The position numbers were made by a program, and so were the translations under genes. From the NCBI GenBank assembly GCA_022447225.1, contig JAKVAZ010000012.1, positions 124,001 through 188,000 of the forward strand: a stretch of 64,000 nucleotides of DNA, read 5' to 3'. Below are positions 20,984-27,566 of this stretch, one piece after another. The notes below the pieces were generated by a model. It was not told the DNA's origin. It ran no database searches and saw nothing but the letters and a program-made list of their open reading frames with translations. This DNA comes from Fuerstiella sp. (lineage in GTDB: Bacteria; Planctomycetota; Planctomycetia; Planctomycetales; Planctomycetaceae). The number at the start of each line of letters is the position of its first letter. Position 1 is the stretch's first letter.

Positions 20984-21057
20984 GGACCTATAGCTCAGTT
21001 GGCTAGAGCGCCACGTTGACATCGTGGAAGTCACTGGTTCAAGTCCAGTTAGGTCCA
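20984..21057 (+). tRNA. tRNA-Val (anticodon GAC)
   Basis: Seen: acceptor arms GGACCTA (20984-20990) and TAGGTCC (21050-21056) pair fully, discriminator A at 21057. Anticodon stem CCACG/CGTGG encloses the loop TTGACAT with anticodon GAC at 21018-21020. T arm CTGG-TTCAAGT-CCAG is present. CCA is not encoded (ACCT follows). Decodes GUC/GUU valine codons. Confidence 0.96.
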
Positions 21058-21088
21058 CCTTGTTCCTCCGAACCGGAGCGAAACCCTG

Positions 21089-21118: not shown

Positions 21119-21502
21119 CATTGGTGGATTCGCCGTTTTCGACCATTTCAGTGGCCCTGGCGGACAAATCTTGGGCAAAATCATTTTTGTTCATCGACGC
21201 CAGGTCTCGACCTTCGCCTTCGGTCGCCGCTTCCACGTGCTCGGCCAGTGGGCTTCTGTCGCGTCTTCTCAGAGTTTCCAAACCGGCCTGAGGTATTCAT
21301 GCCGGTGAACGTCGGATGTTGCGAGGCGGCATTGACTGCTGACTCAGTCATCGTCTGTCAGAAGCCCTGAAAAACAGGCGCAGTTGCAGATTCCGCCGGA
21401 GAACTTCGGGGTTGTGCGGACTGAAATCTTCATTCATAGCAGATGATTACTGGTCGAAGATCTCCGGTGACGATAAAGAGTGTCGATTCAGGGAGGATCA
21501 CC
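21119..21502. other. Intergenic, leader of the DUF2490 gene
   Basis: Frames on both strands are short and of shadow composition. GGGAGG at 21491-21496 is the ribosome site for the gene at 21503. Confidence 0.4.
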
Positions 21503-22219
21503 ATGTTGCGTCGAAGTCATATTTTGGTGCTGTTGGCCCTTTTGATTCATGGATTGCTGTCGTCGCCCGTGCGTGCTCAGACGATTGAAGATGAGGGCTG
21601 GTGGACGGCCGTGTTTTCTCAGGGCGATATTTACTCGGATTCGGACATTCCGTCACGCTGGCGGTGGTGGTTCGACGGACATGCCCGCTTTCAGGACGAT
21701 TCGGACGGCTTCGACGTCAGCATTGTCCGGCCAGGAATCGGTTATAAACTCACTGACAGTACCACAGCGTGGATGGGCTATGGCTGGATCCGCACCGATC
21801 CAATCGGTGGTGGGCCAACCTTCGATGAAAACCGTATTTGGCAACAACTAACGTGGTCGCACCAGATGGGTGACTTCCGTATTGGATTGCGTCCACGCTT
21901 CGAGCAGCGGTTTCTAACAACAGGTGAAGATACCGGACTTCGCTTTCGGCAGTTTGCAGCTGCGCGGGCACCGATTTCCGTGGACAAACGATTGACCATG
22001 GTGCTTTGGGATGAAGTCTTCATTCATCTGAATGATACCGATTTCGGTACACGGGCCGGTTTCAACCAGAACCGTGTATTTTTCGGCTTCGGATGGAATC
22101 GCTGTCCGGAACAGACCAAATCCCGCGTTGAGATCGGTTATCTGAATCAATTCATCGATCGCCGATCACTCCCGAACCGGATGAATCACCTGCTGGCTGT
22201 GAATTTCTTTTTGCAATAG
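21503..22219 (+). CDS. DUF2490 outer-membrane-type protein
   Basis: Seen: 238 aa from the ATG at 21503 with GGGAGG about 7 nt upstream; a longer frame from 21443 lacks this. Signal peptide 1-25 ending SSPVRAQ. Mature part has alternating aromatic beta-strands (WRWWFDGHARF, GIGYKLTDSTTAWMGYGWIR, RFEQRFLTT...FRQFAAARAP) and a closing LLAVNFFLQ with terminal aromatic residue, as in small beta-barrels. Known: DUF2490 proteins are predicted outer-membrane barrels of unknown function. The start of a run of envelope genes. Confidence 0.88.
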   Translation: MLRRSHILVLLALLIHGLLSSPVRAQTIEDEGWWTAVFSQGDIYSDSDIPSRWRWWFDGHARFQDDSDGFDVSIVRPGIGYKLTDSTTAWMGYGWIRTDPIGGGPTFDENRIWQQLTWSHQMGDFRIGLRPRFEQRFLTTGEDTGLRFRQFAAARAPISVDKRLTMVLWDEVFIHLNDTDFGTRAGFNQNRVFFGFGWNRCPEQTKSRVEIGYLNQFIDRRSLPNRMNHLLAVNFFLQ

Positions 22220-22950: not shown

Positions 22951-23358
22951 ATGAGCAAGATAGTTACAGGTCTGGCTATGGTCCTGGCCGTTACAGCAAC
23001 TCAGGCGTTTGCCGCCGATGGTCAGATTTCAGAGACGATGCTTAGTGCATTTGGACTTTCCGACGTCCAGGTCGTTTCAGACGTCGATGGAATGAATGTT
23101 CGCGGTCAGGGTTCATTCACTTACGTCAGCGGCGGAAGCGCTTCCGGCGTGGGCATTCCGTTTGGCGGTAGCGGAACAATCAACCGCTACAAGGCGGGTT
23201 CATTGAATCGGGGCACATCGGATTCTGCCGGTGGATCAGAATCCGTATCTTACGGCGTTCTTGTGCGAGAACGAGTGGCCGCTAATGGCGACGTTTCTTC
23301 ACTGACCCGATCCGTGGAAGTTGGCAGTGCCGGCGGAGCATGGGCAAGCAGTCGTTAA
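22951..23358 (+). CDS. Small secreted Gly/Ser-rich protein
   Basis: Seen: 135 aa. Signal peptide 1-20 (MSKIVTGLAMVLAVTATQAFA), then ISETMLSAFGLSDVQVVSD and DGMNVRGQG, followed by a Gly/Ser/Val-rich segment (YVSGGSASGVGIPFGGSG, DSAGGSESVSYG) ending in GGAWASSR. The N-terminal FGL-x3-Q-VVSD-x2-GM-x-VRG block looks like a conserved leader motif found in exported planctomycete proteins. No Cys. Inference: secreted structural or signalling peptide; it lies 0.5-1.4 kb upstream of a porin-like protein and beta-barrel, and might be cargo of the C39 peptidase/barrel pair at 25281-27566. Start chosen because the ATG follows AGGGGTACGAGAG. Confidence 0.72.
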   Translation: MSKIVTGLAMVLAVTATQAFAADGQISETMLSAFGLSDVQVVSDVDGMNVRGQGSFTYVSGGSASGVGIPFGGSGTINRYKAGSLNRGTSDSAGGSESVSYGVLVRERVAANGDVSSLTRSVEVGSAGGAWASSR

Positions 23359-23464
23359 TCGATTGCGGCACGATAGAGACACATCGAAGGTTTCGGATTT
23401 CGTCCTGATTATCCGGATTTGTCCTGTTTGTGTCGCGGTTTGATTGAGAAACTGTCGATACCAA

Positions 23465-23500
23465 AAAGCCACAGTCGGCACCGCTGCTGACTGTGGCTTT
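23465..23500. terminator. Bidirectional intrinsic terminator
   Basis: AAAGCCACAGTC (23465-23476) and GACTGTGGCTTT (23489-23500) are exact inverted copies with a 12-nt loop. Read on the minus strand the stem is followed by TTTTT, so it best serves the minus-strand porin gene ending at 23550; on the plus strand it could end the 22951 gene. Confidence 0.85.
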
Positions 23501-23549
23501 CTGTGTGTCTGTTGGTGACTGACCTGTGCCGTTGATTGCGATTTTGCGA

Positions 23550-24806
23550 TCAGTACGTGAAGCCCGCACTTGCAGCCAGACCGACTAAATTCAGAGTTTG
23601 GTCTCCCGCATTGGCGAAGGCATTAATCTCCGGTCCAGGATTGGCGAACGATCTTCCGAAGCTGCCTGTACGCACGTCGGAATTCCCGGCCCAGTGTTGC
23701 CACTCGAGGCCAAGTCGCATAAAGGCGATGGCGCAGGAACACTCGAGTTGATGTGTCCATTGGAGACCAACCTGTATCTCAGCAATGGACATTTCAGCTT
23801 CGTCCGTCCCGGCAACAGCGAAGTCGTTACTGTTGCTGGCCGATAGGGGCGTTTGGGTTGAAATGCTGGTCGAGGTTGCGGACGTTGCCCGTGCGTTGCC
23901 CCAGAGGTAGGACCCTCTGCCCAGGAAGAAACAGCTCAGGCCATGACATGGATCGCCGATCGGTTTGTTGCCTTCTATACCCATCACGATGCCGTTACCG
24001 TCAAAACTTCGGTCGGTATCTGCGGTGGCCGACAAATCATAAGCATCGCCCTGGACCGTAGCAGGATTAACAGTGGTTCGAAGGAGCACACCGGTCTGTG
24101 AGTTGATGGATGCCCGTCGCGCACCGAACGAAAAGCGGCCTGTGACGATCGGAGTGCAAAATTTTCGAGTGAGCTCGATGTCGCCCATATAGGCGCGTAG
24201 ATGGCTGCTGATACCAATCAGGTCAGGCAACGCACTCGGGGTGCCAAGATGTCCATCTCCTGCACGGTAGTCAAACCATCGTCCCCTGATTCCCCAGCAG
24301 CCTCGCTCGGCTCCGAGCCAGATTCGTGGTGCACCATTTAGTTCCGCGTTGTCCCCAACATTGGCAGACATATTCTGGATCGAGTCCCCAAGTTCATCAA
24401 AAGTTCGGATTGAGCTTGTGGCATCATTGAGTTCCGCATGCAGGAACGTTGCATCGATCCCAAAACTGAACAGATGGTCGGGTTCACAGGTGCGGTAACA
24501 ACTTGCTGTGCAACAGTCGCTGCAGCAGTCGGTCCCACATTCTACATCACTACAGCCCTTACCACACGAACCGCACCGAGTTCGATCACTCGGTGTTGTG
24601 TGCTTGGTTAAGGTGATCACAGGAGTGGACAACCCCGATTTCTGAATCTTCGTGTCCGATAAAACGTTACTTTCTGCGTTCCACCAGCGAGGTAGTTCGG
24701 ATACAGCAGACAATGGGGTGTCAGCATGGAGCCTTGCCTGCATTTGAACGGCAGAAACTGCGGCAATAATTGTCATTGTTGCTGCGCAGAATTGACGTAC
24801 ATTCAT
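23550..24806 (-). CDS. BBP7 / Lpg1974-type outer-membrane beta-barrel protein
   Basis: Seen: 418 aa from the ATG at 24806, preceded by GGAGAATCAAA; an upstream ATG at 24830 is less likely. Signal peptide about 1-28. A Cys-rich knot follows (RCGSCGKGCSDVECG, CCSDCCTASCYRTC), then a barrel with alternating strands and blocks such as FSFGIDATFLHAELND, RIWLGAERGCWGIRGRWFDY, SCFFLGRGSYLWGNAR, ending in AASAGFTY. Known: the Legionella major OMP-like/BBP7 barrels are porins common in planctomycetes. The Cys knot is a planctomycete-style addition of unknown role. It is divergent from the beta-barrel at 25281. Confidence 0.85.
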   Translation of the reverse strand: MNVRQFCAATMTIIAAVSAVQMQARLHADTPLSAVSELPRWWNAESNVLSDTKIQKSGLSTPVITLTKHTTPSDRTRCGSCGKGCSDVECGTDCCSDCCTASCYRTCEPDHLFSFGIDATFLHAELNDATSSIRTFDELGDSIQNMSANVGDNAELNGAPRIWLGAERGCWGIRGRWFDYRAGDGHLGTPSALPDLIGISSHLRAYMGDIELTRKFCTPIVTGRFSFGARRASINSQTGVLLRTTVNPATVQGDAYDLSATADTDRSFDGNGIVMGIEGNKPIGDPCHGLSCFFLGRGSYLWGNARATSATSTSISTQTPLSASNSNDFAVAGTDEAEMSIAEIQVGLQWTHQLECSCAIAFMRLGLEWQHWAGNSDVRTGSFGRSFANPGPEINAFANAGDQTLNLVGLAASAGFTY

Positions 24807-25280
24807 TTTGATTCTCCGTTTTCCACTCACCCGAAAGCCTGTAGATGTGGCAGTGAGTCTCGCGATAACACCAGGTCATTTCATGAACCGGATTATTTCT
24901 TCAACGAAACTGAGAACAGGCGTCAAAGTCAGTCTGCCGTTGCGAACAATCGACTTGCGCGATCGTGACCATTAAGCCGATTATTAAGCGCCGGAATAAC
25001 CGTTCGGATCAATAAAATCGCCCCTAAACCTCCTAACGTATTATTTCTCCATGCGTTGACAGGTGGCCATTTACTTTGCATGTCTGTCGTCTCGGTTAGA
25101 TAGCTAGTTTAGGAAGAGGTTGCCGATTTTGCTGCAGTTGTCAGTAAAAACGAATTCCCCGTATCTCATGAGTCTAAGGGATTCTCGCAATCCGGGCCGA
25201 TCAGTGGTGCTAGTAGATCAAACTGGTGTCATGGATGCGTAAGTGAAGCCCTGACGCGATTTGTTGGCGGAAAGTCAATA
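24807..25280. other. Divergent promoter region
   Basis: About 470 nt, AT-rich around 24960-25110, between the porin (minus) and barrel (plus). TTGACA at 25055-25060 is a possible -35 element, but no good -10 is at the right distance. No gene seen. Confidence 0.4.
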
Positions 25281-26651
25281 ATGACCACATGTGTCGACAA
25301 CCGATGCAGCAAATTGAGTTCACGTATCCGACGATACGGTGAATGTTTGGTTGGAGTTTTCGGTCTCGTTTGGTGCGTTGCTTGTAGTGGAGCGGAAATT
25401 CCTCCGAGATTCACCTGGCTGAGCCAGGCAGAGATCGAAGCATCGTTGTCCCAGACGGTTCCAATAGGCGGCCACGATGTCGTCGTCCAGTCACTCCGGA
25501 CAGAGATTGGGGAGGAGACAAAAACTCGCCTGGGTGGTCACAGTTTGTTCGTTCAGTCGATCCGGTCAAAAAGTCTCTTTAAGTTCCTGTCAGATAGAGG
25601 TGAGCAGGACGTACCGGGGCCGGTTCCAGTGCAGAATTCACCGGCGTCGGAACCACCACCAGTGCCACCACCAGTGCCACCACCAGTGCCACCACCAGTG
25701 CCACCACCAGTGCCACCACCAGTGCCACCACCAGTGCCCCATCAGATCCAGGGTGTTCAGAACAACGCGCCCCCAACCGCTGATACAGATAATGAAAAGT
25801 ACGGTGAGGCGCCGGAAGACAGAAGTTATGCGTTTCTGCGACGCATCAGTCCGCTACTTCCACCTGGTAAATCACAGTTTGATACTGGGTTTGTTTATTC
25901 GCTGTACGAAAACCGACGACCCGTTTATCTTGACTACGTGTCCGGACCGGATGATGTCGTGGACGCGCGGCTGTTAAGACGGACTCTGTACGTGCCATTC
26001 GCATTGCGTTACGGGGTCGCCGATGGTGTACAACTTTTCGCCAACCTTCCAGTAGGATGGAGCAAGAATGAGGTGGCATTTCCGGGATATGATGCCGTCG
26101 ACAATGTTGGGTGGATAGGCGATGTAACCGTTGGAGCGACATGCGTGCTGGGTGATCCGGGTCCTGGTGAGCCGGATACCATTGGCTCGCTTGCGTTGAC
26201 AGCTCCAACCGGCAATACGACTTTGCTGACCAATTTTCTGGAACCCGAAGCGCAAATGGGCCTTGGCCATTTTGCATTGTCAGCGAGTCTTACGTCTATT
26301 CGTACGATTGATCCATTGATTGTGTTTCACGGTTTTGGCCTGGTTTACCAGTTTGATGATAGATTCCATGGCCGAACGATCCATGTGGAGCCAGGAATGG
26401 AATTCAACTATCGATTCGGTGTGGGGTTTGCGGTAAATAACAAAGTTACTCTGAGTAGTGCAGTACTGGGAGCCTACGTTCTGTCATCGAAGGTTAATAA
26501 CGAGCGCCTGCCGGAGTCGACGCTTGAACCGATCACGATGCGTTTTGCAGTAACCATTGCGGATGGCGATTGTTTGCAGGAACCATTTATTCAGATTGGC
26601 GTGACTGATGATGCCAGTACCGCGACATTGGGCTGGGTCGTGACCTATTAA
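25281..26651 (+). CDS. Outer-membrane beta-barrel (transporter-like) with PPPV-repeat linker
   Basis: Seen: 456 aa. N-terminal basic stretch and hydrophobic signal ending about residue 37 (VWCVACSGA). A 60-residue N-domain with a duplicated pattern (GGHDVVVQSLRTE, GGHSLFVQSIRSK) is followed by a Pro-rich linker at 125-152 of seven PPVP repeats, then a beta-barrel of about 280 residues (FDTGFVYSLYENRRPVYL, DGVQLFANLPVGWSKN, IGDVTVGATCVLGD) ending in ATLGWVVTY. Known: such barrels fall near the Phenol_MetA_deg/transporter group, as does FapF of the Fap amyloid pathway. The adjacent C39 peptidase gene adds weight. Function as secretion pore is inferred; start could be internal. Confidence 0.75.
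   Translation: MTTCVDNRCSKLSSRIRRYGECLVGVFGLVWCVACSGAEIPPRFTWLSQAEIEASLSQTVPIGGHDVVVQSLRTEIGEETKTRLGGHSLFVQSIRSKSLFKFLSDRGEQDVPGPVPVQNSPASEPPPVPPPVPPPVPPPVPPPVPPPVPPPVPHQIQGVQNNAPPTADTDNEKYGEAPEDRSYAFLRRISPLLPPGKSQFDTGFVYSLYENRRPVYLDYVSGPDDVVDARLLRRTLYVPFALRYGVADGVQLFANLPVGWSKNEVAFPGYDAVDNVGWIGDVTVGATCVLGDPGPGEPDTIGSLALTAPTGNTTLLTNFLEPEAQMGLGHFALSASLTSIRTIDPLIVFHGFGLVYQFDDRFHGRTIHVEPGMEFNYRFGVGFAVNNKVTLSSAVLGAYVLSSKVNNERLPESTLEPITMRFAVTIADGDCLQEPFIQIGVTDDASTATLGWVVTY
25653..25736 (+). repeat. Seven identical 12-bp tandem repeats inside a coding region
   Basis: CCACCACCAGTG occurs seven times in a row without a mismatch, encoding PPPV-type repeats in the linker of the barrel protein. Perfect identity means recent expansion or slippage; copy number changes in steps of 4 residues keep the frame. 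Confidence 0.97.
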
Positions 26652-26828
26652 TCCCGTATTTGTCGTACTGCGTCTGAAGGACTCGGACCTCGCAGACAGC
26701 AGAAGCAGCACAGGCGGGAAAGAATGGCGGAGGCGGTTCCACACGGATTCGGACAATCGGATTTGTTACGGGATGCTTCCCGCATGTTATTGAAACATGG
26801 GAATAAGGCGGACTGGGCTATGGGACCC

Positions 26829-27566
26829 ATGCAGAACATGATTGCTCCAAAGACGTCAATACCGGCATTGCGAGTCAGGTGTTGTCTGTCGATAGTGGTT
26901 CTGCTGCTGACAGTCCTCTGCCGTCCGACACTGGCCCAGTATGACGGTGCACCAGTACGGGACGGAAACCGTTCTTTTCAGAAGCCGGTGCAAAACTGGA
27001 TAGAACGACGAAACCGTAACATTCTCATGCAGCAACGGGATTTTTCGTGTGGTGCGGCGATTCTCGGTACCATGATGCGCTATTACTGGGAGGACCGGGT
27101 CACCGAAGAAATCCTGATCGAAGATCTGCGTCAAATGCTGCCGCAGGAAGAACTTTTTGAACGTGTTGAAAACGGCCTGGCAATCACAGACCTGCGTCGT
27201 CTGGCAGTAAGGCGGGGTTACCTGTCAACGATCGGACGGGTTAGTTTTGATCAACTGACGAAGTCAAAAATTCCGCTGATCGTGGGTATCGTAACGAATG
27301 GTTACGATCATTTTGTGCTCTTCCGTGGGTTCGACGGCGAATGGGTGTACTTGGCAGATCCTTCTCGCGGCAATATACGAGTGCCGTCGTGGCAATTCGT
27401 CCGAGAATGGCAGGAGAATGCGGTTCTCATCGTGATTAAGAAGGGTGGAAAACCCCAACTGGATTCGCCTTTACATGTAAGAGACGAGGAACGGGGTGTC
27501 GGACGAACAAACTTGCAACTGATCCGAAATCTACCGACAGGGGCAATCCGCGCAGGATTCAGATAA
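26829..27566 (+). CDS. Exported C39-family cysteine peptidase
   Basis: Seen: 245 aa from the ATG at 26829; the frame runs upstream to 26724 without support. Signal or anchor 16-36 (VRCCLSIVVLLLTVLCRPTLAQ). Catalytic C74 in QQRDFSCGAAILGTMMRYYW (Q69 likely oxyanion), H161 in NGYDHFVLFRGF and D177 in YLADPSRGN: a full C39 triad. Known: C39 peptidases are often N-terminal to bacteriocin ABC exporters, but free exported ones occur in Fap amyloid operons (FapD). No ABC gene is nearby. It lies 177 nt after the beta-barrel gene. Inference: processes a protein passing the barrel. Confidence 0.88.
   Translation: MQNMIAPKTSIPALRVRCCLSIVVLLLTVLCRPTLAQYDGAPVRDGNRSFQKPVQNWIERRNRNILMQQRDFSCGAAILGTMMRYYWEDRVTEEILIEDLRQMLPQEELFERVENGLAITDLRRLAVRRGYLSTIGRVSFDQLTKSKIPLIVGIVTNGYDHFVLFRGFDGEWVYLADPSRGNIRVPSWQFVREWQENAVLIVIKKGGKPQLDSPLHVRDEERGVGRTNLQLIRNLPTGAIRAGFR

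Follow-up and report, generated by a model that had tools for sequence, protein, structure and literature searches.

A planctomycete locus that most likely encodes a secretion cassette on the Fap plan with a different cargo

Introduction

The closest described relative of the locus reported here is the Fap functional-amyloid system of Pseudomonas (fapABCDEF), whose parts include an outer-membrane barrel, FapF, and a free exported C39 peptidase, FapD, which is needed for amyloid secretion; with the FapD variant C38A, FapE processing and FapC secretion are reportedly lost. Here we analyse a 64,000-nucleotide stretch of contig JAKVAZ010000012.1 from the planctomycete Fuerstiella sp. (the window; coordinates are counted from its first letter), in which a gene for a small secreted protein, a FapF-like barrel gene and a FapD-like peptidase gene stand together with a divergent gene for a second, Legionella_OMP-like barrel. 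Most likely, this four-gene arrangement serves secretion in planctomycetes along the lines of Fap, with a different cargo.

What FapD acts on has been described with caution: in the sections available to us, one paper calls its target unclear (PMC5557850, 2017) and another yet to be determined (PMC6173800, 2018), and published mass spectrometry showed full N-terminal processing for FapE alone among the Fap proteins, its first ~70 residues yielding no peptides (PMC5557850; PMC6173800). The accessible part of a 2025 review states that FapD is thought to process the N-terminus of FapE and the periplasmic region of FapF (PMC12822426). Co-localisation of fapD and fapF has been reported, in the accessible text of PMC6173800, for five additional phyla that the text leaves unnamed and that may include Planctomycetota, and the pairing in itself is thus already known. 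The survey in the 2025 article, in the part available, names Pseudomonadota, Desulfobacterota, Nitrospirota and Bacillota (PMC12822426). In the open-licence literature we found no published report of a planctomycete Fap-like cassette, of its cargo family or of its leader, nor any paper on Fil, a 'putative pilus' system in NCBIfam that the locus also resembles in part.

Results

The barrel and the peptidase resemble FapF and FapD

The sole Pfam match of the window barrel, to PF13557, is weak and below the cut-off (E 0.0021). The NCBIfam hidden Markov model (HMM) of FapF, NF058560, matches it at E 7e-10 (38 bits against an equivalog cut-off of 700) and also matches 25 of 28 aligned barrel homologues. 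A structure model based on these 28 homologues has a mean predicted local distance difference test score (pLDDT) of 72.7, with values mostly of 75-96 across the barrel. Foldseek ranks FapF first among PDB entries for this model (5o67, E 3e-17). VIA-align does the same (5o65; Z 26.8, 2.2 A, 247 aligned residues, 25% identity) and places the COG4313 channel 4rl8 next (Z 23.9, 10% identity). The barrel belongs to the same superfamily as the COG4313/Phenol_MetA_deg channels (PF13557) and keeps their PTG residues, P309 and G311 without exception and T310 almost always among the 28 barrels, but unlike those channels it is closer to the FapF fold and is paired with a C39 peptidase. As modelled, it is FapF-like. 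Its N-terminal extension is proline-rich and modelled with low confidence (pLDDT <50 over residues 65-125 and 154-176), no coiled coil being evident there, and the model does not predict a plug helix at residues 181-197. A further FapF-like barrel, of 753 residues, occurs in one planctomycete genome (G489; L202:9746-12007, minus strand), with no peptidase or cargo gene in the 19 kb fetched.

The peptidase matches Pfam C39 (E 2e-13) and the NCBIfam models of FapD (NF058616; E 8e-25, 87 bits against an equivalog cut-off of 330) and FilB (E 2e-22, 80 bits against a cut-off of 475). Its catalytic triad, numbered C74/H161/D177 from a start at 26829 and C71/H158/D174 from a start at 26838, is invariant in 32 of 32 aligned homologues, all of which match the FapD model. 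The predicted structure (pLDDT 86.9) matches the C39 domains of ComA (3k8u, Z 18.4) and PCAT1 (9azl, Z 18.0) and a leader-bound C39 domain (6mpz, Z 17.2), so that the fold is shared with C39/PCAT exporters; unlike those, the window enzyme is free of any transporter, since a Pfam scan of its 304-residue open frame found no ATP-binding cassette (ABC) domain, and we rejected an ABC exporter as its context on this ground. With signal peptides called throughout by a home-made score or sequence pattern, the protein is by prediction a free, exported C39 enzyme of FapD type that retains the full triad. In a tree, the planctomycete peptidases form one side of a branch (support 100/97), with 51 relatives from other phyla, FapD included, on the other. 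At one locus a tandem pair of FapD-like peptidase genes lies behind a single barrel gene (L072:7973-9755, minus strand).

Because the scores fall far under the equivalog cut-offs, we treat the window barrel and peptidase as homologues of FapF and FapD and not as proven equivalents. The likeness to Fil is of a similar kind: all 32 peptidases match FilB and 18 of the 28 barrels match FilC at E 0.001, but the window peptidase scores under the FilB cut-off and the window barrel has no FilC match at E 0.001. The strict FapB/FapC repeat (GN-X-G-N-X2-AG-X2-NQQ), found in 9 of the 51 loci from other phyla as a positive control, is absent from all 60 planctomycete stretches, with a loose form present once (L073). 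The planctomycete loci further differ from Fap in gene order (barrel-peptidase as opposed to D-E-F), in having no recognisable FapE and in carrying the extra Legionella_OMP-like barrel. Lacking the strict repeat and an evident FapF coiled coil, and scoring far below the cut-offs, the cassette is not a fap operon.

A preliminary description made from the letters of the window alone had proposed a Fap-like locus here, and the three genes it named lie where it put them (Table 1). The roles it gave to two of them agree with the searches: a free exported FapD-type C39 peptidase without an ABC exporter, its export read from a sequence pattern, and a barrel in the FapF role. The periplasmic extension that it assigned to the barrel is present, but as a low-confidence proline-rich stretch with a 12-bp repeat and no visible coiled coil. 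The Fap likeness is largely right as regards the two machine parts, barrel and peptidase, and does not extend to a fap operon proper.

The three genes are present or absent together in planctomycetes

Searched with the single peptidase sequence at E 0.001, a sample of the phylum gave matches in 36 of 294 genomes, only two of them strong. A two-row peptidase profile matched 54 of 397 genomes of the class, strongly in 28 (32 matches, E 2.9e-42 or better); the next match stood at E 2.9e-8, and most of the weak ones fell in long reading frames of the kind expected for ABC exporters. The cargo profile matched 28 of the 397 genomes, a set identical to the peptidase genomes, and the barrel profile matched 27 of these 28 plus, weakly, one other (G344, 3e-9); in the lone peptidase genome without a barrel (G592) the contig ends inside the peptidase gene. 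In the window's own genome one peptidase and one cargo were detected, and a genus-mate (G358) matched none of the four profiles. The locus L106 belongs to a cultured planctomycete, Bythopirellula polymerisocia Pla144. Recurrence in 28 of 397 class genomes makes the arrangement more than chance.

Across the 31 loci of these 28 genomes, the barrel gene lies 5' of the peptidase gene on the same strand in 30, at most 100 bases away or overlapping in 28 of the 30, and the 31st locus, with no adjacent barrel, is a cut contig. Forty cargo genes are spread over 30 of the 31 loci, the nearest at 40 to 7463 bases from the peptidase. We also used the best 80 of 566 relatives from a scan of 84,980 species genomes. 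Of these, 51 come from other phyla and 29 belong to the planctomycete clade, 27 by name and two by their place in the tree; nine of the 29 repeat contigs already used. The remaining 20 loci, which lie outside the profiles, hold the barrel in 19 cases and the cargo in 14, and in five of the six without cargo the contig breaks off no more than ~3.2 kb from the peptidase.

A homologue of the divergent gene stands at 24 of the 31 loci (17 of the 24, taken after clustering, made up the profile), and 132 of the 397 genomes contain members of the family; given this breadth we regard the gene as an accessory drawn from a broad family and rejected it as a specific marker of the system. It often accompanies the system, and our guess is that it may act as a surface anchor. 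A single-sequence query found no second gene like it in the window's own genome.

These counts bear on several earlier expectations. The small protein had been put forward as a possible substrate, a proposal strengthened by the occurrence of its family in exactly the 28 peptidase genomes. The divergent porin had been thought to loosen its link to the pair; with a homologue at 24 of 31 loci it does not, broad though its family is. Barrel and peptidase might have failed to co-occur elsewhere, yet they share 27 of 28 peptidase genomes and lie side by side in 30 of 31 loci; the barrel might have proved a plain porin, yet among solved folds FapF comes closest and the COG4313 channel only second. 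A plain porin without a partner was rejected on these two grounds.

The proposed cargo carries a second leader behind its predicted signal peptide

An alignment of 39 cargo proteins reveals, with few exceptions, a shared leader behind the signal peptide, xGLsgx.vxSDxE[GA]xxVRGxG, which we number with its V at -4. V or I occupies -4 in all 39 proteins, S or T -11 in 38, R -3 in 37, G -2 in 37 and E -8 in 23, and the consensus has M or V at position -12 as well as S, E and G at positions -11, -8 and -2, respectively. Double-glycine leaders have a hydrophobic residue at -12, S or a polar residue at -11, E at -8, V or I at -4 and G at -2, and the cargo leaders have this layout in common with the leaders of C39/PCAT exporters; unlike the substrates of those exporters, the cargo has a signal peptide too. 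The leader pattern occurs in 34 of 40 cargo genes and in none of 54 other secreted open reading frames (ORFs) at the same loci. Behind the leader the bodies are short and very diverse (median 77 residues, median 58% Gly+Ser+Ala+Asn+Thr). Pfam gave no match in the window cargo and, among the 39 proteins, two unrelated single-member matches.

One cargo with the same leader (L080:6930-7535, plus strand) has a body of five Q-x-G-x-x-N/S repeats, which we take to be curlin-like, as in CsgA and CsgB; unlike curli, these repeats are not recognised by Pfam, and the lone PDB hit of the protein was a ribonuclease (E 0.099). By its repeats this protein is a possible curli-type amyloid routed through a Fap-type machine.

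Leader-bearing proteins also occur on other contigs or in clusters some distance from the machine (L203-L209), with no peptidase or barrel within the stretches fetched; two of these loci, L203 and L206, carry pieces of the Legionella_OMP-like barrel as well. One genome (G545) has nine leader-protein matches at 227,284-249,243 of a contig whose peptidase lies at 219,403. Such distant leader-bearing proteins suggest that one machine serves many cargos.

Similar leaders stand beside FapD/FapF pairs in other phyla and on FapE-position proteins

Among the 51 loci from other phyla, 46 hold a FapF-like barrel within the locus. When we read 10 of them, secreted proteins beside the pair showed an LSxxE[LM]xx[VIT]xG-like stretch behind their signal peptide. 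Since the resulting pattern, R1, was framed from these 10 loci, we counted it separately on the other 41. Over all 51 loci, 92 secreted ORFs lie no further than 3.5 kb from the peptidase and R1 occurs in 24 of them (1.9 expected by shuffles), as against 1 of 38 beyond 5 kb; over the 41 held-out loci it occurs in 17 of 73 near ORFs, from 13 loci (1.54 expected), and in 0 of 31 beyond 5 kb. A stricter signal score gave 12 of 54 held-out ORFs against 1.02 expected, and the secreted non-cargo ORFs of the planctomycete loci gave 0 of 54. At least two held-out matches look like chance (that in L148 and one of two in L160), and near-copies in L143 and L145 are counted repeatedly. A stricter pattern, R2, matched 20 of 73 held-out ORFs against 1.17 expected, which is not a clean test because R2 was framed after the R1 matches and FapE were known. 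Examples of the double-glycine (GG)-type leader come from Nitrospirales (L138, three copies), Methylomirabilota (L141), Sulfurovum (L143) and Methylocaldum (L145). FapD-like peptidases also occur in Helicobacter species (L150, L167, L169); in L150, where no FapF-like barrel was found, a short secreted protein carries the GG-type leader LSENEMKETKGE.

The gene directly after the peptidase, called FapE here by position and not by a curated model, shows the same leader layout a short way behind its signal peptide, a further likeness between Fap and the planctomycete loci. All 11 such genes first collected contain [IVLA]xDx[EA]Lxx[LMQ]RG[RK][YF], a pattern written from the same 11. Four later ones (L158, L159, L163 and L164) do not fit it strictly but share the layout (IGDEELSQMRGRW, LSDPQLAEMRGRF, LTNPELAEMRGRF and LSDPQLAQMRGRF, respectively); a looser pattern fits three of the four and L163 fits by eye, so that the layout, xx[DN]x[EAQ]Lxx[LMQ]RG[RK][YFW], is seen in 15 of 15 overall. 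In hhalign, a profile of unselected FapE N-termini aligned with the planctomycete leader on the motif, and 1 of 200 column-shuffled decoys scored as high.

Discussion

We propose, as the probable reading of these sequence comparisons, that the cassette works by Sec export, periplasmic leader removal by the FapD-like peptidase and exit through the barrel. Sec would export the small Gly/Ser-rich protein, which would lose its signal peptide and, in the periplasm, keep a second leader of ~25-30 residues ending in VRGxG. The peptidase would recognise this leader as cytosolic C39 domains recognise double-glycine leaders and cut at or next to RG, and the mature body (~80 residues in the window cargo) would leave through the FapF-like barrel. 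As the weakest step, the cargo would probably assemble at the surface of the cell, where it may form an amyloid or another fibre.

Several observations weigh against parts of this proposal. The joint presence in 28 genomes is partly built in, because these loci supplied the sequences for both the cargo and the barrel profile, and 6, 10 and 4 candidates per genome were scored for peptidase, cargo and barrel, respectively; the independent part consists of the 369 absences, a cargo in G433 (on other contigs, with no profile row from its locus) and the 20 further loci, one of which, L114, lacks a cargo gene without having a nearby contig end. Many cargo genes lie on the opposite strand and some on other contigs. 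Unlike C39/PCAT leaders, the cargo leader has G or A at -7 (38 of 39) in place of L or M, R at -3, and mostly T, K, M or Q at -1 in place of G, A or S, and a stricter textbook double-glycine pattern matched 0 of 40 cargo genes. An HMM of the planctomycete leader found no match at E 0.05 in the 51 other loci and scored FapE no higher than shuffles; because this plain search missed FapE, we claim only a likeness between the two leaders and no common descent. Finally, R1 was also enriched near the peptidase among ORFs without a signal score (9 of 219 against 2.4 expected, compared with 3 of 181 against 2.2 far from it), perhaps through missed signal peptides.

What the cargo does is a separate matter, and amyloid formation by the planctomycete proteins is a guess. 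It is quite possible that the same machinery delivers a secreted signal, a toxin or a surface adhesin that forms no amyloid, in which case only the route would be Fap-like. The absence of the strict FapB/FapC repeat from the 60 planctomycete stretches, save for the loose match in L073, and the short, diverse bodies behind the leader fit such a cargo, and Gly-zipper surface bacteriocins have reportedly been described in Caulobacter (PMC5380434). The repeats of the L080 cargo point the other way, though without recognition by Pfam, as does the clustering, in which no family beyond the four genes reached more than 7 of the 31 loci and no constant immunity partner was seen, none having been specifically sought.

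Two readings would take the cargo leader out of the peptidase's hands. The peptidase might act on the periplasmic linker of the barrel and thereby open or close the pore, with the conserved cargo N-terminus serving only as a targeting or chaperone-binding segment. For Pseudomonas, the available sections of one paper suggest FapF as a possible target of FapD, with cleavage close to GG/GA motifs that precede the barrel (PMC5557850), and barrel and peptidase are the tightest gene pair of the locus; we nevertheless consider this reading unlikely in view of the conserved leader on the planctomycete cargo, the GG-type leaders in other phyla and the proline-rich repeat that makes up the window barrel's linker. 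That the barrel is a COG4313-type uptake channel and that peptidase and small protein are mere neighbours with no joint function would accord with PF13557 as its only Pfam match and with 4rl8 as the next fold match, yet FapF is closer in both Z score and identity and the three genes are present or absent together, which leaves this reading very improbable.

If leader removal is indeed the peptidase's task in planctomycetes, the reading can be widened. We lean, with modest confidence, towards a joint claim: that FapD-type peptidases generally, Pseudomonas FapD included, are periplasmic peptidases of double-glycine-type leaders, whose substrates are exported by Sec and retain a further leader, of the C39 type, directly behind the signal peptide, and that the sites would be VRGxG in the planctomycete small proteins, [LM]RG[RK][YFW] in FapE and LSxxE[LM]xx[VIT]xG-like stretches in neighbours of the pair in Nitrospirales, Omnitrophota, Methylococcales and Campylobacterota. 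Were this correct, it would define a Sec-plus-C39-plus-barrel class of secretion across many phyla and would name both a substrate and a site for FapD. The conserved leader beside FapD/FapF pairs, in planctomycetes and in other phyla, and on FapE-position proteins yields a one-site prediction for that enzyme. As read here, the cassette also extends the Fap plan to Planctomycetota, with a different cargo.

Layout of the locus and neighbouring genes

Table 1. Features of the cassette in the window
Feature	Position	Strand	Basis and remarks
Small secreted protein, proposed cargo (135 aa)	22951..23358	+	Family A5; signal peptide-like start, Gly/Ser-rich after
Proposed Sec signal peptide of cargo (MSK...QAFA)	22951..23013	+	Sequence pattern and home-made heuristic
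Second cargo leader LSAFGLSDVQVVSDVDGMNVRG, proposed C39 recognition/cleavage region	23041..23106	+	39-protein cargo alignment; double-glycine layout (-12, -11, -8, -4, -2)
Legionella_OMP-like second outer-membrane barrel, recurrent accessory gene	23550..24830	-	PF05150 E 3e-5, slightly below cut-off (23.5 bits against 25.4)
FapF-like outer-membrane barrel with N-terminal extension (456 aa)	25281..26651	+	NCBIfam FapF; fold match FapF 5o65
Perfect 12-bp tandem repeat (7.2 copies), Pro/Val-rich linker of barrel extension	25653..25738	+	Repeat scan
Barrel residues 178-456, aligning with FapF 88-404	25812..26648	+	Model and structural alignment
FapD-like exported C39 peptidase	26724..27566	+	Start probably at 26829 or 26838; Cys codon at 27048-27050

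Upstream of the cargo gene, the window also encodes a small DUF2490 outer-membrane protein (PF10677, E 5e-51) at 21443-22219 on the plus strand, which was not among the families recurring in the 31-locus clustering. A tRNA-Val(gac) gene lies at 20984-21059 on the same strand, ~1.9 kb upstream of the cargo gene.

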